Of a stretch of DNA of 64,000 nucleotides, positions 2,990 through 64,000 are shown in pieces. Origin of the DNA: an uncultured Opitutia bacterium (lineage in GTDB: Bacteria > Verrucomicrobiota > Verrucomicrobiia > Opitutales > UBA953); NCBI GenBank assembly GCA_945957395.1, contig CAMFKE010000001.1:186001-250000 (forward strand), in the 5' to 3' direction. How positions within the stretch are numbered: the stretch's first letter is position 1; the number at the start of each line of letters is the position of its first letter. The position numbers and the translations under genes were made by a program. The notes beneath the pieces were generated by a model, which was given only the letters and a program-made list of their open reading frames with translations, made no database searches and was not told the DNA's origin.

Positions 2990-3760
2990 TCAGATGGCGT
3001 TTATGAAGCATTTCGCTGCGGCCACGGAGAGCGCGGCACCCAGCGCACGGCGAAGGGCGATAGGTGAGGCTTTGCGCGCGCCGACCTGTGCGCCGAGCGC
3101 GCCCGCGATGACCACGATGCCGATGAGCACGGGGGATGGTGACCAGCCCGAAGGCCACCGGGCGGCGGAGAGACCGGCGGCGGAGTTCACGAAGATGTAG
3201 GCGGCGGATATGCCGGCGGATTCGAACGGTGCGGCCGCTCCGGCGAGGATGAGCGCGGGCCCGAGGAAGACGCCGCCTCCGATGCCACAGGCTCCGGCCA
3301 CGAAGCCGAGCGCCGCGCCGACGGGAATCCACAGGAGGGGAATGCGGATTGCCGTATGCGGATTGCGGAGGTCTGAAGGTGATTCGGAGTCCGGGGCGCT
3401 TTTCTCTAAGACTCCGGGGAACGCCGTGCGGAATGCCGCGAGCAGGATGGCGAGCCCCACGACGGCCCAGAAGAGGGGGGCCGGCGCGCCGAGTCTGCCG
3501 CCCAGCCATGCGGCGGGCATGCCGCCGAGCGCGCAACAGGCCCAGAGTCGCCAGCGGAATCCGCCGCGGGACAGGAATGTAAGCCAGGCGATTCCGGCGA
3601 CCGCTATGTTCAGCGAGAGCGCGGTGACACGCATATCGTCCTGCGGCCAATCGGTCATGCCCATGATCGCCAGGTAGGCCGAGCCGCCGCCGTGCCCCAC
3701 CAACGCGTAGAGAAACGCGGCGGCGGCGAACAGCAGGAGCGTTGGCAGGGAGGTTGGCAT
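2990..3760 (-). CDS. TSUP (TauE/SafE) family membrane permease
   Basis: This is a 256-residue integral membrane protein with roughly eight hydrophobic segments and the duplicated glycine motifs of the TauE/SafE family (VGHGGGSAYLA near the N-terminus and GACGIGGGVFLGPALIL near residue 160). TSUP proteins move sulfite, sulfonates or other organosulfur anions across the inner membrane. It sits between moaA and moaD. The central loop (NPHTAIRIP) is encoded by a degenerate 7-bp repeat tract. The substrate cannot be read from the sequence; a link to sulfur supply or to a sulfite-handling molybdoenzyme is only suggested by context. Confidence 0.85.
   Translation of the reverse strand: MPTSLPTLLLFAAAAFLYALVGHGGGSAYLAIMGMTDWPQDDMRVTALSLNIAVAGIAWLTFLSRGGFRWRLWACCALGGMPAAWLGGRLGAPAPLFWAVVGLAILLAAFRTAFPGVLEKSAPDSESPSDLRNPHTAIRIPLLWIPVGAALGFVAGACGIGGGVFLGPALILAGAAAPFESAGISAAYIFVNSAAGLSAARWPSGWSPSPVLIGIVVIAGALGAQVGARKASPIALRRALGAALSVAAAKCFINAI
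3339..3366. repeat. Degenerate heptanucleotide tandem repeat inside the TSUP gene
   Basis: Four 7-bp units (GGAATGC, GGATTGC, CGTATGC, GGATTGC) encode the cytoplasmic-type loop between the two halves of the permease. The tract is 28 bp, not a multiple of three, yet the gene is open across it. Confidence 0.6.
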
Positions 3761-3864
3761 GGCTGCGAGCGTGATTCGGTTTCAGCGGTCCTGTGATTCG
3801 GGGCCGCGCAGCGATGTGCTCACGGAAAACCCAATATCGATAACTGAATCACCGTTGTTCATCG

Positions 3865-6312: not shown

Positions 6313-7998
6313 TTACTTGCGCTTGCGCTGCTGGTCGGACTCGCCGCGTACCTTGAAGCCGCCGGATTTGCCGGCCTTGCGGGCGGGCCCGGCCTTGGCT
6401 TTGGAAATGCGCGGGCCCGCCGGCTTTTTCTTGGCGGGTGCTCCGGCCGCGGCGGCGCGGTTGGCCTTCTTGGGCTTGGCTTCGCCGGTGGCGTTGTACT
6501 TGCCCACGCGTCCTGCGGACGCCTTTTCCTGGCGCTTGGAGCCGACGACGGCGGTCTGCTGGTCCTTGAAGAAGGCGCGGTTGGGGTCGTCGTCCTTGGG
6601 CTTGCCGATGTAGCGCAGCTTGAGCGGGACGCCGGAGAGGTCGAAGGCTTCGTGCAGGCCCGAGTCGAGGTAACGCTCGTACTGGGTGTCGAGGCGGTCG
6701 TAGCTGTTGCAGTAGAAGCGGATGGTGAGCGGGCGCGTGTGCGTCTGCGTGGCGTAGTAGCACTTGAAGCGGCGGCCAGACACGAGGCGCGGCGGGTTCT
6801 TTTCGAAGAGCTTCTCGACGGCCTTGTTGAGCTGGCCGGTGGAGATCTTCTGGTACATGCGCCGGTGGATTTCGCGCGTCTCGGCCAGGATGGTCTCGGT
6901 GCGGAAGTCGGTCTTGGCGGAGGTGAAGAGGACGGGCGAATCGGGCAGGAAGAACAGCTCCGAGCGCAGGGCGGCCTTGTACTTGCGGCGGAACTCGGAT
7001 TCGTCCGAGTAGCCTTCGACAAGCTCGCCGGCGCGGAACTGCTTGTGCACGAGGTCCCACTTGTTGACCACGATGATGAGTCCGGCGCCGGATTCTGCCA
7101 CCTTGCCCGCGAGCTGCTTGTCCATGCGCGTCACGCCTTCCTCGGCGGAAAGCACGAGCACGACGACATCGGCCTGTTCGAGGGCCTCGTCGGAGCGCAG
7201 CTCGGAGAAGTAGTCGAGCACATCGTGCTTGGTGGACGCTCGGCGGCCCGCGGTGTCGACGAGCTCGAAGTGCCAGGTCTCGCCGGTCTCGGTGCTGTAA
7301 TCGAGGTTGCACTTCACCGGGTCGCGCGTGGTGCCGGCGATTTCGGACACGACGAGGCGGTCGCTCTTGAGCAGGCGGTTGCCGATGGAGCTCTTGCCCA
7401 CATTGGGACGACCGGCCACGCAGATCTTGATGCGCTCAGGGGCGGGCGCTCCGACCTGAAGGCCGGTGGCCTCGGGCTTGGGGCCCAGGATGCCGGCGAT
7501 TTTGGCGAGCAGGAAGCCCACGCCGGTGCCGTGTTCGGCGGACACCATGACGGGCGCGCCGAAGCCGAGCTTGAAGAAGTCGTTGGACGAGTAGGAGCGC
7601 TCCTCGTTGTCGCACTTGTTGGCGACGAGGATGACCTTCTTGCCGTACTTGCGCAGCTTGGTCGCCACGGTCTCGTCGAGCGGCACGCAGCCCTCGTTCA
7701 CATCGACCACGAAGATGACGATGCCGGCGGCCTGGATGGCGAAGTCGACCTGCTCCTCGATGGCGTTGGTGATCACCTTGGGCGTGAGCTTGGTGACCAG
7801 GCCGATGCCGCCGGTGTCCATGAGCAGGAAGCCCTGCTCCGGGCATTCCTCGGCGATGAGGTCGCGCGTCACGCCGGGCGCGTCGTGCACGATGGACACG
7901 CGCCTGTTGAGGATGCGGTTGAACAGACGGCTCTTGCCGACGTTGGGGCGTCCGACGATGGCGACGCTGCGCGGAATTTCCTGTGAGGAGGAAGACAT
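6313..7998 (-). CDS. der: Ribosome biogenesis GTPase Der
   Basis: This essential GTPase has two G domains in tandem and assists 50S assembly. Both P-loops read GRPNVGKS (near residues 16 and 196), with DTGG and DTAGR switch motifs and NKCD / NKWD specificity motifs. A KH-like domain follows. The protein has 561 residues, longer than the usual 440-490, because of a lysine/alanine-rich C-terminal tail from about residue 480 (KPKKANRAAAAGAPAKKKPAG), probably RNA- or ribosome-binding. It has its own terminator and sits alone between the molybdenum cluster and rlmN. Confidence 0.95.
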   Translation of the reverse strand: MSSSSQEIPRSVAIVGRPNVGKSRLFNRILNRRVSIVHDAPGVTRDLIAEECPEQGFLLMDTGGIGLVTKLTPKVITNAIEEQVDFAIQAAGIVIFVVDVNEGCVPLDETVATKLRKYGKKVILVANKCDNEERSYSSNDFFKLGFGAPVMVSAEHGTGVGFLLAKIAGILGPKPEATGLQVGAPAPERIKICVAGRPNVGKSSIGNRLLKSDRLVVSEIAGTTRDPVKCNLDYSTETGETWHFELVDTAGRRASTKHDVLDYFSELRSDEALEQADVVVLVLSAEEGVTRMDKQLAGKVAESGAGLIIVVNKWDLVHKQFRAGELVEGYSDESEFRRKYKAALRSELFFLPDSPVLFTSAKTDFRTETILAETREIHRRMYQKISTGQLNKAVEKLFEKNPPRLVSGRRFKCYYATQTHTRPLTIRFYCNSYDRLDTQYERYLDSGLHEAFDLSGVPLKLRYIGKPKDDDPNRAFFKDQQTAVVGSKRQEKASAGRVGKYNATGEAKPKKANRAAAAGAPAKKKPAGPRISKAKAGPARKAGKSGGFKVRGESDQQRKRK

Positions 7999-12948: not shown

Positions 12949-14376
12949 ATGTCGACACCCGTCCGCACCCGTTTCGCTCCCAGCCCGACCGGATTCTTCC
13001 ATATCGGAAGCGCCCGCACCGCGCTTTTCAGCTGGCTCTACGCCCGCCACACCGGCGGCACCTTCGTCCTTCGCATCGAGGACACCGACAAGGCCCGCAA
13101 CACCGACGAATTCCTGCAGGTCATCTACGACAGCCTCAAGTGGCTGGGCATGGACTGGGACGAGGGCCCCGAGGTCGGCGGCGACTACGGTCCCTACCTG
13201 CAGAGCGAGCGCAACGACATCTACAACCGCTACCGCGACCGGCTGCTGGCCAACGGCCGCGCCTACGAGAAGGACGGCGCCATCTGGCTGCGCCTGGAGG
13301 GCGAGCGGTACACGGAAACCGAATACAGCTATAACAACGGCGAGTTCTGGACCACGACGAAGAAGGCCGACAGCGCGGTCGAGCCGCTCACGCGCACCAT
13401 CGAGAAGGTGCGCGCCGAGCCGATGCGGCTGAACGACCAGGTGCGCGGCTATGTGGAGCGCGCCGAGGACCGCGACTTCATCCTCTTCCGCGCCAACGGC
13501 GAACCGGTGTTCCACTTCGTCAATGTCGTGGACGACATCGAGATGAAGATCACGCATGTCATCCGCGGCGAGGACCACCTGTCCAACACCTCCAAGCACG
13601 TCGAGATCTTCAAGGCGCTCGGCGCTCCCATCCCGCATTACGCGCACATCCCGCTAATCCTCAAGACCGACGGCCCGGGCAAGATGTCCAAGCGCGACCG
13701 CGGCGCGCTCATCGAGGAGTACCGTTCGCGCCACTATCTGCCCGCCGCCGTGCGCAACTACCTGTGCCTGCTGGGCTGGACGCCCAAGGACGGCAAGGAG
13801 ATGCTGCCCATCGCCGACATCATCGCGCAGTTCGAGCTCACCGACATCCATTCGGCCAACGCGCGCTTCGACGAGAAGAAGATGGCGCACATGAACCAGC
13901 TTCACCTGCGCTCGCTCAACCCCGAGTCGTTCGCCTCGCTCGCCGCGCCCGTGCTGGGCGAAGCCGGCATCGTTGACGAGGCCACGCCCGAGGACGACAT
14001 CCAGCGCGTGCTCGCCCTGGTGCAGCCCAAGTGCGTGTCGCTGGAATCCCTCCCGGGCTTCACCAAGTACTTCTTCTCCGAAGACTACGCGTTCGACGAG
14101 GCCGCCCGCGCCAATGTTTCCAAGAAGGCCGACCCCAAGGCGCGCTGCGCCGCCCTGATCCCGCACCTGGAGACCGTCGCCGACTTCGCCGACACCGCTT
14201 CCGTGGACGCCGCATTCGCCGCCGCCGGCGCCGCCGCCGGTTGCAAGGCGACCGACTTCTTCGCGCCCCTGCGCTTCGCGGTTTCCGGACTCGGCTCCGG
14301 TCCGGACATGCATCCGCTCCTGGCCGCCCTCGGCCGCGACAAGGTGCTTGCCCGCCTGCGCCGCTTCTCCGCCTAA
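12949..14376 (+). CDS. gltX: Glutamyl-tRNA synthetase
   Basis: This class I aminoacyl-tRNA synthetase attaches glutamate to tRNA-Glu. The ATP-binding HIGH motif appears as [11 protein letters not shown] near residue 18, and [10 protein letters not shown] lies near residue 244. The length of 475 residues is typical of bacterial GltX. A separate GlnRS gene exists at 43017, so this enzyme need not misacylate tRNA-Gln. The start [15 protein letters not shown] matches the family N-terminus. A bidirectional terminator follows. Confidence 0.96.
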
Positions 14377-60570: not shown

Positions 60571-61011
60571 ATGAACCTCTCCCTTTTCGGATTTAGGCTG
60601 ATGAGCCCGAAGGCCCTGAAAGACCTCGAAGGGCGCGCCGACGAGCGTTGGCGCATCGCCCATGAGCGACGCAACGCCGAGGCGGCCCGGCGGCTGGAGC
60701 AGCTCGGTCGCGAGGCCGAGGCTGCGGGCGAGGCCTCCCGTCGGCGCTGTCGCGAGATGGAGGCCGAGTGCCGCCGCAGCATCCGCGAGCAATACGAGGT
60801 GTTCGACCGGCAATGGCGCAACCGCGAGGACATGTCTCAGGCCCGCGTGCAGGAGCTCCGGCAGGAACTGGACAGCCTCACCCAGTCCCTTTCGGCCTAT
60901 ACGGACAAGGGGCGCAAGCTGCTGGCCCTCGCCATCGACCGTCGAACCCCCGAGAACGAGTCCGTCGCCGCCTTCCTCAAGGCGCGCGCCCAGGGCATCC
61001 GGCTGGTCTGA
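60571..61011 (+). CDS. Coiled-coil hypothetical protein behind a LexA-type site
   Basis: The protein has 146 residues, nearly all helical and highly charged, with long Glu/Arg-rich heptads from about residue 20 to 115 (ADERWRIAHERRNAEAARRLEQLGREAEAAGEASRRRCREMEAECRR). There is no signal peptide or membrane helix. I do not recognise the family. Codon use matches the core genome. If the upstream LexA-type palindrome is functional, it would be an SOS gene. It is the last core gene before the tRNA-Leu remnant. Confidence 0.62.
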   Translation: MNLSLFGFRLMSPKALKDLEGRADERWRIAHERRNAEAARRLEQLGREAEAAGEASRRRCREMEAECRRSIREQYEVFDRQWRNREDMSQARVQELRQELDSLTQSLSAYTDKGRKLLALAIDRRTPENESVAAFLKARAQGIRLV

Positions 61012-61051
61012 CCGCAGCCCGGTCGCGAGCCCCGCGCCGTGGCCCCAAGAG

Positions 61052-61103
61052 TGCCGAAGGCGGGACTCGAACCCGCACGCCGTTAGGCAACCGATTTTAA
61101 GTC
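61052..61103 (-). repeat. 3' fragment of a tRNA-Leu (TAA) gene, probable attachment site
   Basis: On the minus strand the sequence runs from the anticodon loop (CTTAAAA, anticodon TAA) through a long variable arm, a perfect T arm (GCGGG TTCGAGT CCCGC) and the acceptor 3' strand CTTCGGC with discriminator A. The 5' half is missing: the sequence to the right (5' side) does not pair with the 3' anticodon stem beyond two bases and has no D arm or GCCGAAG acceptor. This is the pattern left at one end of an element that integrated in a tRNA gene. Confidence 0.8.
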
Positions 61104-61176
61104 CTTCCGGGCCCTTTTGGCGGCCAGAAAACCCGCATGAATACTAGAACAGTTCCGAAGGGTTGCGCAAAAAGAG

Positions 61177-61379
61177 GTGCAAAAATTGGCAGTCACTGCC
61201 AAGCGTAAGTCGTTGATAATCGTTTCCGTTTTTCGGCCGTTTTTCGGGGCGTTTTCAAGCGGGCGACAGATTTTCGGTTGGTGGCTTTCCCTCGCGCATT
61301 TTGGGCCGGTGCCAAAAAGCGATTTTGTGCGGTCGAGGGCGCAGCCACTGCCAACTTTTTGGCAGTGGAATTTTTGCAC
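61177..61379. repeat. Inverted-repeat pair flanking a ~200-bp AT-richer segment
   Basis: GTGCAAAAATT at 61177-61187 is repeated inverted as AATTTTTGCAC at 61369-61379. Just inside each copy is a TTGGCAGT/ACTGCCAA palindrome (about 61186-61201 and 61346-61368). This could be a miniature element or recombinase arm sites. Confidence 0.6.
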
Positions 61380-61419
61380 TGAAGAGGGGGCGCTTTTCCC
61401 CGTTGCGTCTCCTCCTTCA

Positions 61420-61454
61420 TCGCATAGGCCCGTCCTGAGGACGGGCCTATGCGA
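61420..61454. repeat. Perfect 16-bp hairpin with TGA loop
   Basis: TCGCATAGGCCCGTCC and its exact reverse complement are separated by TGA. There is no T-run on either side. It lies about 120 bp upstream of the Abi-family gene. Confidence 0.85.
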
Positions 61455-61574
61455 GGCGAGCCCCCCAATCTCGAATTTGTCTTGCGAATTCCGGCAAAGG
61501 CAGGACTTTCGTTTGCAACAGATCCCCACATGCCTCTGCCGCAAGGTAAGCGTGTGGGGCCGTTTTTTACCCGG

Positions 61575-62540
61575 ATGAAGCCTTTCAAGACCATTGAGGA
61601 GCAAATCGCGCAACTTCGGCAGCGCGGCATGGTGATTTCCGACGAAGCGAGGGCGCGGCACTGCCTCGAACACTACAATTACTACAGGCTCAGCATTTAC
61701 TGGCGACCGTTCACGCTTTGGCAGCAGACTCGCCGGAATGGGGACGACAACCGCTTTTTACCCGGGGCGACCTTTGAAAGGGCTTGGGAGCTTTACCATT
61801 TCGACCGCCGTTTACGCATGTTGGTCATGGAGGCGTGCAAGCGTGTCGAAGTCTCGTTGCGGTCGCGCTGGGCGTATCATTTTGCCCGGATTCACGGCGA
61901 ATTCGGCTATCTGGATTCGGCTAATTTCCGGGATTCCGATCATCATGACGAAAACATGGAGGATTTTCGGAAAGAGGTTCGCCGCTCGAAGGATGACTTT
62001 GTCCGCAAATACGACCGGTCTTCCGATTCTCGCATGGAGGTTTGGGTGGCGGTCGAAGTTATGAGCTTCGGCCTGTTATCCAAACTTTATGCCGACACGG
62101 CACGGCCCAGTGACCATCGGGTGCCAAGTGCGCCCCGGGCCGTGGCGCAAACCTACGGTTACATTGAAAGCGAGTTCGCGCCGATGGTGAACGCCTTGGT
62201 TCAGGTTCGCAACCGGGCGGCGCATCACGCGCGGCTCTGGAACTATACGGTGCCGGCAAAAGTGCCGCTGTCGCGCCATACGCCCCGGGCGGTTCGTGAG
62301 AGCGTTTGCCCAGATATGACACCGGCTTCCGGCTACACGCCCGGAACCCGCGTTGAACCTTCAGTTTACAACATGTTGGTGCATCTGGCGCATTTGGAAT
62401 CCATCATTGATCCGGATTCCGATTTGCCGGCTCGTATCGGCCGGCATCTTGCGCTGTTGCCTGCCGAACTTCGCGCTTTGGCTAGGATTCCCGGGGACTG
62501 GGAAACCCGCCCCGTCTGGTTGGCCGCGATGCGGGATTGA
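61575..62540 (+). CDS. Abi family (Abi_2/AbiD/F-like) abortive-infection protein
   Basis: The 321-residue protein opens MKPFKTIEEQIAQLRQRGMVI, then HCLEHYNYYRLSIYWRPF, ERAWELYHFDRRLRMLVMEACKRVEVSLRSRWAYHFA and, near residue 212, RNRAAHHARLWN. This last block is a HEPN-type R-x4-H motif, the proposed RNA-cleaving site of Abi_2 proteins. Such proteins stop phage spread by halting the infected cell. ATGs at 61530 and 61449 are alternative starts; no clear ribosome-binding site distinguishes them. It lies in the island next to the tRNA-Leu fragment. Confidence 0.85.
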   Translation: MKPFKTIEEQIAQLRQRGMVISDEARARHCLEHYNYYRLSIYWRPFTLWQQTRRNGDDNRFLPGATFERAWELYHFDRRLRMLVMEACKRVEVSLRSRWAYHFARIHGEFGYLDSANFRDSDHHDENMEDFRKEVRRSKDDFVRKYDRSSDSRMEVWVAVEVMSFGLLSKLYADTARPSDHRVPSAPRAVAQTYGYIESEFAPMVNALVQVRNRAAHHARLWNYTVPAKVPLSRHTPRAVRESVCPDMTPASGYTPGTRVEPSVYNMLVHLAHLESIIDPDSDLPARIGRHLALLPAELRALARIPGDWETRPVWLAAMRD

Positions 62541-62574
62541 GAGAAGCTCAGCTATTGGCCGCCCCGCCTCTGGA

Positions 62575-62781
62575 TCAGCGGAAATGGATAATCCCCGCCA
62601 TGCAGAACGAGAGCACTGCGGAGGTTGACGCGACGAAACGCCCCAGCTTGACGGCGAAAACCCGTTGGGCGGGGGCCTCCGGCGATTGTTCGGCCAAGGC
62701 TTTTCCGGCTAACCTCCATGCAATGGCTCCGAGAATGCCCATAAGGGCGAAGCAGACGGCGAGGGCGGTGTGGGTGGTCAT
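62575..62781 (-). CDS. Small two-helix membrane protein in the defence island
   Basis: The 68-residue protein has two hydrophobic helices (TALAVCFALMGILGAIAWRLAG and FVASTSAVLSFCMAGIIHF) joined by a short basic loop. I do not recognise the family. It lies 32 bp downstream of the methyltransferase gene on the same strand, so it may be co-transcribed with it, and is convergent with the Abi gene. Confidence 0.5.
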   Translation of the reverse strand: MTTHTALAVCFALMGILGAIAWRLAGKALAEQSPEAPAQRVFAVKLGRFVASTSAVLSFCMAGIIHFR

Positions 62782-62813
62782 GGTGACGAAATCTTATGCG
62801 GTTGGGGCGGCGC

Positions 62814-64000
62814 TCAACTGTCGCGGCGATAGGTGTCGGCGCGCTTGGCGTGGCGGGCGAAGCCGTAATCGACGAGCAGGGAGAGGTTTTTGCGCAGGGC
62901 GTCGTCGAGTTGTGCGCGGGTGCCGTCCTTGGTGGTGAACTTAGCGGCGATGGTGTCGAAGGTTACGGGGGAGCCGTCGCGAGGGAGCATGGCGCGCAGG
63001 GTTCGGATGCGTTGTGCGCGGGTGCCGCGAAGTTCGATGCGAGCCGGTGCGGTGTCCTTGGCGGGCTTGGCGGCGGGTGACTTCTTCGCGGGTTTGGCCG
63101 GCTTCGCGGGGGCGGCTGCTTTCTTGGCCTTGGGCGCTTCGGATTGCTTGGCCTGATAGTCCGGGCGCAGGTAGCGGATCAGGCCGCGTTTCTCCTCTTC
63201 GGCGCGTTCGGCATTCAGGTCGCAGAGGTGTACGAGCCAATCGGGCTCCGGCATGTCGGCGGGCACGCCGTAGGCTTCGGCGACGAGTTTATCGAGTTCG
63301 TCGTGAAGCTGTCGGAGCGTGGCAGTGCCGAGCGCTTTCAAGGCTTCCTGTTGCTTAGTCGCGAGAGGCTTGCCGGCGCGCAGGTCGGCAAGGGCATTGT
63401 ATTGCGATGTAATCCCTTCACCAGTTTCGGCGGTGACGCGCTTGCGGTGCGCATCAAGTGATTCGGCAATCTTGCCGATTTGGCCCCGTGTGGCGTCGTC
63501 GCAACCGGGGAACGGAAACGGCTCGAAACAGGCGGTTTTGTTGTAGCGGGGGTCGTTGCCCATGCCCATGCGCCCTCCGGCGGCGAGCGCCCAATCGACA
63601 TGCCAGCGCGAACTTAGCACGCCAAGCGCGAAGGCGTCGGGCAACGCGATGCAGACGAGCATGTTGTCCGACGCGATATCTCCGGGCAGGAACTGGAAAA
63701 CGCGGTGTTTCGAGACTTCGCCGGTGGCGATGTAGCGCGGCAGGCCGGCGAGGGCGGGGCGGAAGTCGCGCCGCGCCTCTCCGAATGTCCACCAGTTTGT
63801 CCGGTAGGTGTCGCGCTTGTTGGCGTCACGCTCCGGTTTCACGGTGCGCAGGACATGATCGTAAACCTCCGGATACCGTTCGCGCACCTCGTCGACGGTA
63901 AGGCCGAACAGGTCGATGACCATGACGCCGCGAGGCGATTCAGTGAGGTCGCGGTTGTTGCGGTAGGGGCGGATGTGGTTTTCGAGTCCTTTGCGGCAGC
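62814..64000 (-). CDS. MmeI-like class I DNA methyltransferase/restriction protein, C-terminal part (cut by window edge)
   Basis: The open frame reaches the window edge, so only the last 395 or so codons are seen. They match the C-terminal specificity part of MmeI/DISARM-like methyltransferases: [118 protein letters not shown]. After this come [22 protein letters not shown], a Lys/Ala/Pro linker ([21 protein letters not shown]) and a winged-helix-like end ([25 protein letters not shown]). The catalytic NPPY motif must lie to the right. The methylation target and any nuclease domain cannot be judged from this part. Confidence 0.85.

Follow-up and report, generated by a model that had tools for sequence, protein, structure and literature searches.

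Overall, we believe that the right-hand end of the 64,000-nucleotide stretch of DNA analysed here (the window, C1:186001-250000; coordinates without the C1 prefix are window positions) belongs to a 10.76-kb integrative element in a tRNA-Leu(UAA) gene, one that brings its own integrase and replication genes, carries defence genes as cargo, and would depend on a helper in order to move. We consider this explanation, taken as a whole, the likely one. The features that delimit the element are as follows:

61050-61103, minus strand: left attachment site, a displaced 3' fragment of tRNA-Leu(TAA) (54-bp match, composition analysis)
61104-64000, no strand: the part of the island that lies in the window; the whole island extends to C1:257812
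61186-61202, no strand: putative left inner arm-type site, two TTGGCAGT motifs face to face, 82 bp from the core
61347-61366, no strand: putative left outer arm-type site, two TTGGCAGT motifs in an inverted pair
C1:256543-257685, minus strand: tyrosine integrase, 380 aa (Pfam, PHROG)
about C1:257717-257738: putative right arm-type sites, two TTGGCAGT motifs, the inner site 76 bp from the core
C1:257814-257895, minus strand: intact tRNA-Leu(TAA), the partner of the left fragment, beyond the window; its 3' end is the second attachment copy

The sequence-only reading had placed the 3' part of a tRNA-Leu(TAA), lacking its 5' half, within 2 bp of 61050-61103. The fragment spans the anticodon stem to the discriminator base, and since ARAGORN calls no tRNA there, the 5' half is indeed missing. 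That reading had further proposed that the island would run from about 61104 past the right edge of the window to an intact tRNA-Leu(TAA) whose 3' end repeats the fragment, with an integrase gene close to it, and had set about 100 kb as the distance within which the second copy should lie. The second copy was found 10.76 kb away, at C1:257813-257866 (54 bp, 96%, E=3.6e-19), with the integrase gene 128 bp from the intact tRNA. This arrangement is shared without difference with the tRNA and tmRNA islands of Islander, which is silent on the mechanism of transfer: an intact tDNA and its cognate 3' fragment, with a common orientation and the fragment lying to the 3' side, both of which integration into the 3' end of a tRNA would produce, a tyrosine integrase inside, and a length within 2-200 kb (PMC4383910). 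We regard site-specific integration at tRNA-Leu(TAA) as practically beyond doubt.

Upon removal of the island in silico, with the flanks joined at the anticodon loop, a complete tRNA-Leu(TAA) that ARAGORN can call is restored. The two attachment copies differ at two variable-arm bases (GCC/GGC in the fragment, GCU/AGC on the island side) that pair with each other and amount to a single compensatory base pair, C-G versus U-A, so that the restored tRNA keeps its fold, and the island's copy therefore probably evolved in another host. Crossover by tyrosine integrases in the anticodon loop of tRNA genes is common; if it took place there, the host's original half survives as the fragment, while the half in the intact gene is the one that the island brought. 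A search of the genome for a second tRNA-Leu(TAA) gene found none. The island would thus have replaced half of what is apparently the sole tRNA-Leu(UAA) gene, and the compensatory change makes the rebuilt tRNA a clean example of such a replacement.

The integrase matches PF00589 with 27.9 bits against a cut-off of 27.1, a match that covers only half of the catalytic domain, and the PHROG integrase with E=3.7e-30. In an alignment with 18 relatives, its box I arginine, lysine, second arginine and final tyrosine coincide with theirs, and at one box II position it has N for H, as do most of the 18; its closest named relative (49%) comes from a Verrucomicrobia subdivision 3 MAG, which suggests a verrucomicrobial host. 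There are six TTGGCAGT motifs in 17 kb, against an expected 0.34, and all six lie at the island ends, four on the left and two on the right; these motifs look like integrase arm sites. The related island L085 has 21-bp direct repeats near both of its ends, 61 and 84 bp from the core.

Comparison with relatives places the junctions in context. Among the 20 family relatives whose surroundings were read, 16 have trpA and pyrB 5' of tRNA-Leu(UAA), as here, so that the right junction is the ancestral one; other genera have only this right flank (tRNA-trpA-pyrB) in common with the island locus, the left flank is shared by none of the 20 relatives read, and of 273 genomes of the order, this one alone shows the attachment pattern. 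G+C is 0.616 over the whole island, 0.578 in the AbiD region and 0.667 in window positions 1-61000, which bears out the AT-richer DNA that had been noticed on the 5' side of the fragment, and the tetranucleotide distance between island and host is 0.28, compared with a mean of 0.109 (sd 0.022, maximum 0.175) for 29 host segments of the same size. Just left of the fragment, a 146-aa reading frame (60571-61011) has no match in 56 relatives and is either lineage-specific or not a gene.

Within these limits, the island encodes the following in addition to the integrase:

61575-62540, plus strand: AbiD/AbiF-family (Abi_2) protein, 321 aa, likely start 61575
62814-64000, minus strand: C-terminal part of an MmeI-type single-chain (type IIG) restriction-modification enzyme, running past the window edge
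C1:252649-254088, minus strand: DUF3987 helicase-primase, 479 aa (PF13148 E=2.8e-8, above cut-off)
C1:254085-255287, minus strand: CHC2/Toprim primase-like protein, 400 aa
C1:255303-255545, minus strand: HTH_17 (AlpA-like) protein, 80 aa (PF12728 E=2e-7, above cut-off)
C1:255648-256538, minus strand: orphan gene between the HTH and integrase genes, 296 aa, G+C 0.494

Read leftwards from the intact tRNA, the order is integrase, orphan, HTH_17, CHC2/Toprim, DUF3987 and MmeI-type, followed by AbiD on the opposite strand. The name of defence island that had been given to this locus holds in so far as two defence systems are carried, and is incomplete in that a module for integration and replication takes up about half of the island; the whole is therefore a mobile, satellite-like element that carries defence genes as cargo. 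The PF13148 match of the DUF3987 protein aligns profile positions 2-62 only, and the protein is 36% to a homologue whose PF13148 alignment covers 146-356. The orphan, separated from the integrase gene by a 4-bp gap, has no relative in any library searched or in the 273 genomes of the order; its fold model is unusable (mean pLDDT 35), and a likeness to ubiquitin (weak matches, E 0.007, one 40-residue stretch) was judged to be chance. Pfam and PHROGs scans found no capsid, terminase, capsid-remodelling or packaging genes in the island, and domain scans of all island proteins turned up neither a relaxase nor a mobilization domain.

The nearest known likeness is to the phage-inducible chromosomal minimalist islands (PICMI), phage satellites of Vibrionaceae that are defined by an integrase, an AlpA protein (PF05930/PF12728) and a DUF3987/DUF5906 primase (PF13148/PF19263) (PMC10803314). 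In most subfamilies an uncharacterised gene overlaps or adjoins int, a single gene often separates alpA from prim, and the defence genes, restriction-modification cargo among them, lie between prim and the end (PMC10803314). The present island has a PF00589 integrase, a PF12728 AlpA-type protein, a PF13148 DUF3987 primase and a gene without assigned function contiguous with int, and the order in both is int, int-adjacent gene, AlpA-type HTH, one gene, DUF3987, defence cargo and att; both lack capsid genes and both carry restriction-modification cargo. In contrast to PICMIs, which average 6.7 kb, the present island measures 10.8 kb, belongs to another bacterial group, has a CHC2/Toprim primase-like gene between the HTH and DUF3987 genes, and would have a helper phage by inference only. 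Insertion at fis is considered a hallmark by the authors who described PICMIs, who located all of them at fis and reported no complete one outside Vibrio (PMC10803314); integration here is at tRNA-Leu(TAA), and the island is therefore PICMI-like and not a PICMI. We think it very likely that the element has a replication module of its own and a PICMI-like layout. It lacks the capsid-remodelling or packaging genes of PICI and P4-type satellites, as well as the relaxase of integrative mobilizable elements. It also resembles the Pseudomonas tmRNA islands I23, I44 and I55, of which I55 is moved by a jumbo phage, in having a tyrosine integrase, an AlpA-type gene, defence cargo that includes type II restriction-modification, and no transfer genes; the target there is tmRNA, and a primase goes unmentioned (PMC12595487).

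The cargo itself had been recognised correctly from the start as an Abi-family gene and an MmeI-like gene. The latter, in full, spans C1:248814-252488 and encodes 1224 aa, with an N-terminal nuclease (ID..ExK), a helical spacer, methyltransferase motifs I and IV, and an MmeI target-recognition domain (E=3.9e-8). It contains a simple repeat:

C1:250365-250408: (GCGAG)x8.8 tract within the MmeI-type gene, past the window edge, 44 bp with zero mismatches

The tract encodes SPRLASPRLASPR inside an insertion of about 25 residues, and both insertion and pentanucleotide repeat are absent from four homologues of 47-51% identity. No other repeats (units of 4-9 bp, at least five copies) were found in the window and the 30 kb beyond it, about 94 kb. 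The unit is not a multiple of three: gain or loss of one unit cuts the protein to 711 or 800 aa, ahead of the target-recognition domain, and in the one assembly the reading frame is open. Judged from the sequence, the restriction gene is somewhat more probably phase-variable than not, with repeat copy number as an on/off switch. Campylobacter has known type IIG enzymes that are phase-variable, such as Cj0031 of C. jejuni, likewise a single-chain restriction-modification enzyme whose gene contains a simple repeat that is out of frame (PMC4889913); the repeat there is a poly-G tract, whereas the present enzyme has the GCGAG pentanucleotide, belongs to the MmeI branch, lies on a mobile element, and would switch by inference.

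The AbiD protein has an Abi_2 domain (E=1e-47) and a motif, RNRAAH, that fits the RX4-6H site of HEPN RNases (PMC3710099). Its leader holds two further features:

61420-61454, no strand: perfect 17-bp inverted repeat with a 1-nt loop, found once in the genome
61517-61565, plus strand: hairpin with a T-run immediately before AbiD, putatively a diverged abiF RNA

The leader folds strongly (z=-5.4) and carries CAACAGATCCCCACATGCCTCT, a complementary arm and a T-run where relatives have the abiF motif; by motif score the site ranks second of about 128,000 window positions, in the expected place and on the expected strand. Twelve AbiD relatives were found in the class, eight of which have RF03085 directly upstream above the curated threshold (nine matches) and three more just below it, and a model built from the relatives' abiF RNAs finds the held-out twelfth, L148, with 32.7 bits. 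The present leader is matched neither by Rfam RF03085 nor by a covariance model built from the relatives' abiF RNAs. The present system shares with the AbiD/AbiF HEPN systems that have the abiF RNA an Abi_2 domain, an RX4H motif and a structured leader, and differs from them in that its candidate RNA lies below detection by either model (PMC12373285, PMC3710099). The hairpin is a candidate for a diverged abiF RNA, and we give this identification an even chance. The 17-bp palindrome was also considered as a microRNA and discarded, its matches to microRNA models falling far under the cut-offs. In L147, two tandem abiF RNAs (2432-2474 and 2561-2603) precede a single AbiD relative; tandem abiF RNAs have reportedly been described for RCd22 of C. 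difficile.

Taken together, a life cycle can be pictured. The element would enter the tRNA-Leu(UAA) gene by means of its tyrosine integrase, with an attP that carries the tRNA 3' half, so that the tRNA stays functional after integration, and the 3' half that the host had before would be left behind as the fragment at 61050-61103. Excision would be performed by the integrase with the AlpA-like HTH_17 protein, possibly joined by the int-contiguous 296-aa protein, and the element would be copied by the CHC2/Toprim and DUF3987 proteins. Having neither a capsid nor a relaxase gene, it would need a helper to move, and the gene order shared with PICMI makes a phage the likeliest helper. The cargo would guard the host against other phages, the MmeI-type enzyme probably being toggled by copy-number change of the 5-bp repeat and the AbiD HEPN RNase probably being under the control of its structured RNA leader. 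Integrase, DUF3987, primase and AbiD have no relatives in viral contigs, and the DUF3987 protein has none in the phages or plasmids searched, so that there is no direct sign of packaging; by analogy with PICMI, we lean slightly towards spread by a helper phage.

The lack of packaging and capsid genes would also suit transfer by conjugation. In that case the island would be an integrative mobilizable element with an oriT, would borrow its relaxase from a helper plasmid or ICE, and would use its primase and helicase for plasmid-like replication after transfer. Such elements with an oriT and without a relaxase exist (PMC11389934). However, the int-HTH_17-DUF3987 order is the satellite signature, and since the island proteins show neither relaxase nor mobilization domains, we consider conjugative mobilization unlikely. 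It is also rather improbable that the island is stranded or decaying, or an immobile prophage remnant in which only the defence genes were kept: a single copy is known, the DUF3987 match is limited to the first part of the Pfam profile and the orphan gene is low in G+C, but both attachment sites, the arm-type motifs, the integrase, the HTH and the replication genes are all present, with open frames and conserved order, and the absence of phage structural genes means that it is not a simple prophage remnant. Partial tRNA copies do occur in genomes, and the fragment might in principle have arisen by chance or by partial duplication of a tRNA in the host chromosome, with no mobile DNA at all; the common orientation, the position of the 3' fragment on the 3' side, the integrase inside, the arm motifs limited to the island and the foreign composition rule this out, and its probability is negligible.

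The preferred reading, a helper-dependent integrative element, draws on a wider family. Of 384 genomes of the class, 43 encode relatives of the CHC2/Toprim protein. A tyrosine integrase lies upstream on the same strand in 12 of the 20 primase neighbourhoods read, with a tRNA gene or fragment beside it in 8 of these 12, and of the remaining eight neighbourhoods, several stop close to the edge of a contig. With the present island included, similarity of the integrase, primase or DUF3987 protein led to seven elements that have tRNA repeats as their limits on both sides; they measure 6.0-10.8 kb, and their target tRNAs are Leu, Ser (two), Met, Lys, Arg and Tyr. In most related elements, the gene that comes after the primase gene encodes a helicase of the AAA_25, DUF3987 or DUF5906 type. 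The int-adjacent gene overlaps int by 4 nt in L085 and L122, and the int-adjacent proteins of the relatives are unlike each other, with the weak exception of L085 and L115. Restriction or methyltransferase cargo is carried by three other elements, namely L085 (type III restriction-modification and a CHAT protein), L123 (a type IIG enzyme) and L118 (a type III methyltransferase and AbiEii; ends not delimited); no known defence genes were found among the proteins scanned from L115 and L130.

We put forward only tentatively, as a doubtful though attractive extension, that these elements form a class-wide lineage of tRNA-targeting, PICMI-like satellites, and that restriction switched by slippage lets the satellite alternate between host defence and admission of its helper. 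If so, the GCGAG tract would offer a simple solution to the conflict between carrying restriction and needing a phage helper. Should phages indeed carry elements of this gene order within the class, minimal satellites would have a much broader distribution and would not be bound to a single site.

Two of the related elements depart from the usual attachment pattern. In L116, a 6-kb element lies between two apparently full-length tRNA-Ser(GCT) genes (7226-7295 and 13258-13327) with 70 bp in common, and in L123 the repeat (3755-3792 and 13694-13731) corresponds to the 5' half of tRNA-Lys; integration of this 5' type is the rarer one. The present genome also encodes a second integrase near tRNA-Lys(TTT) (C2:399140-399667, L135), which may mark a second island.
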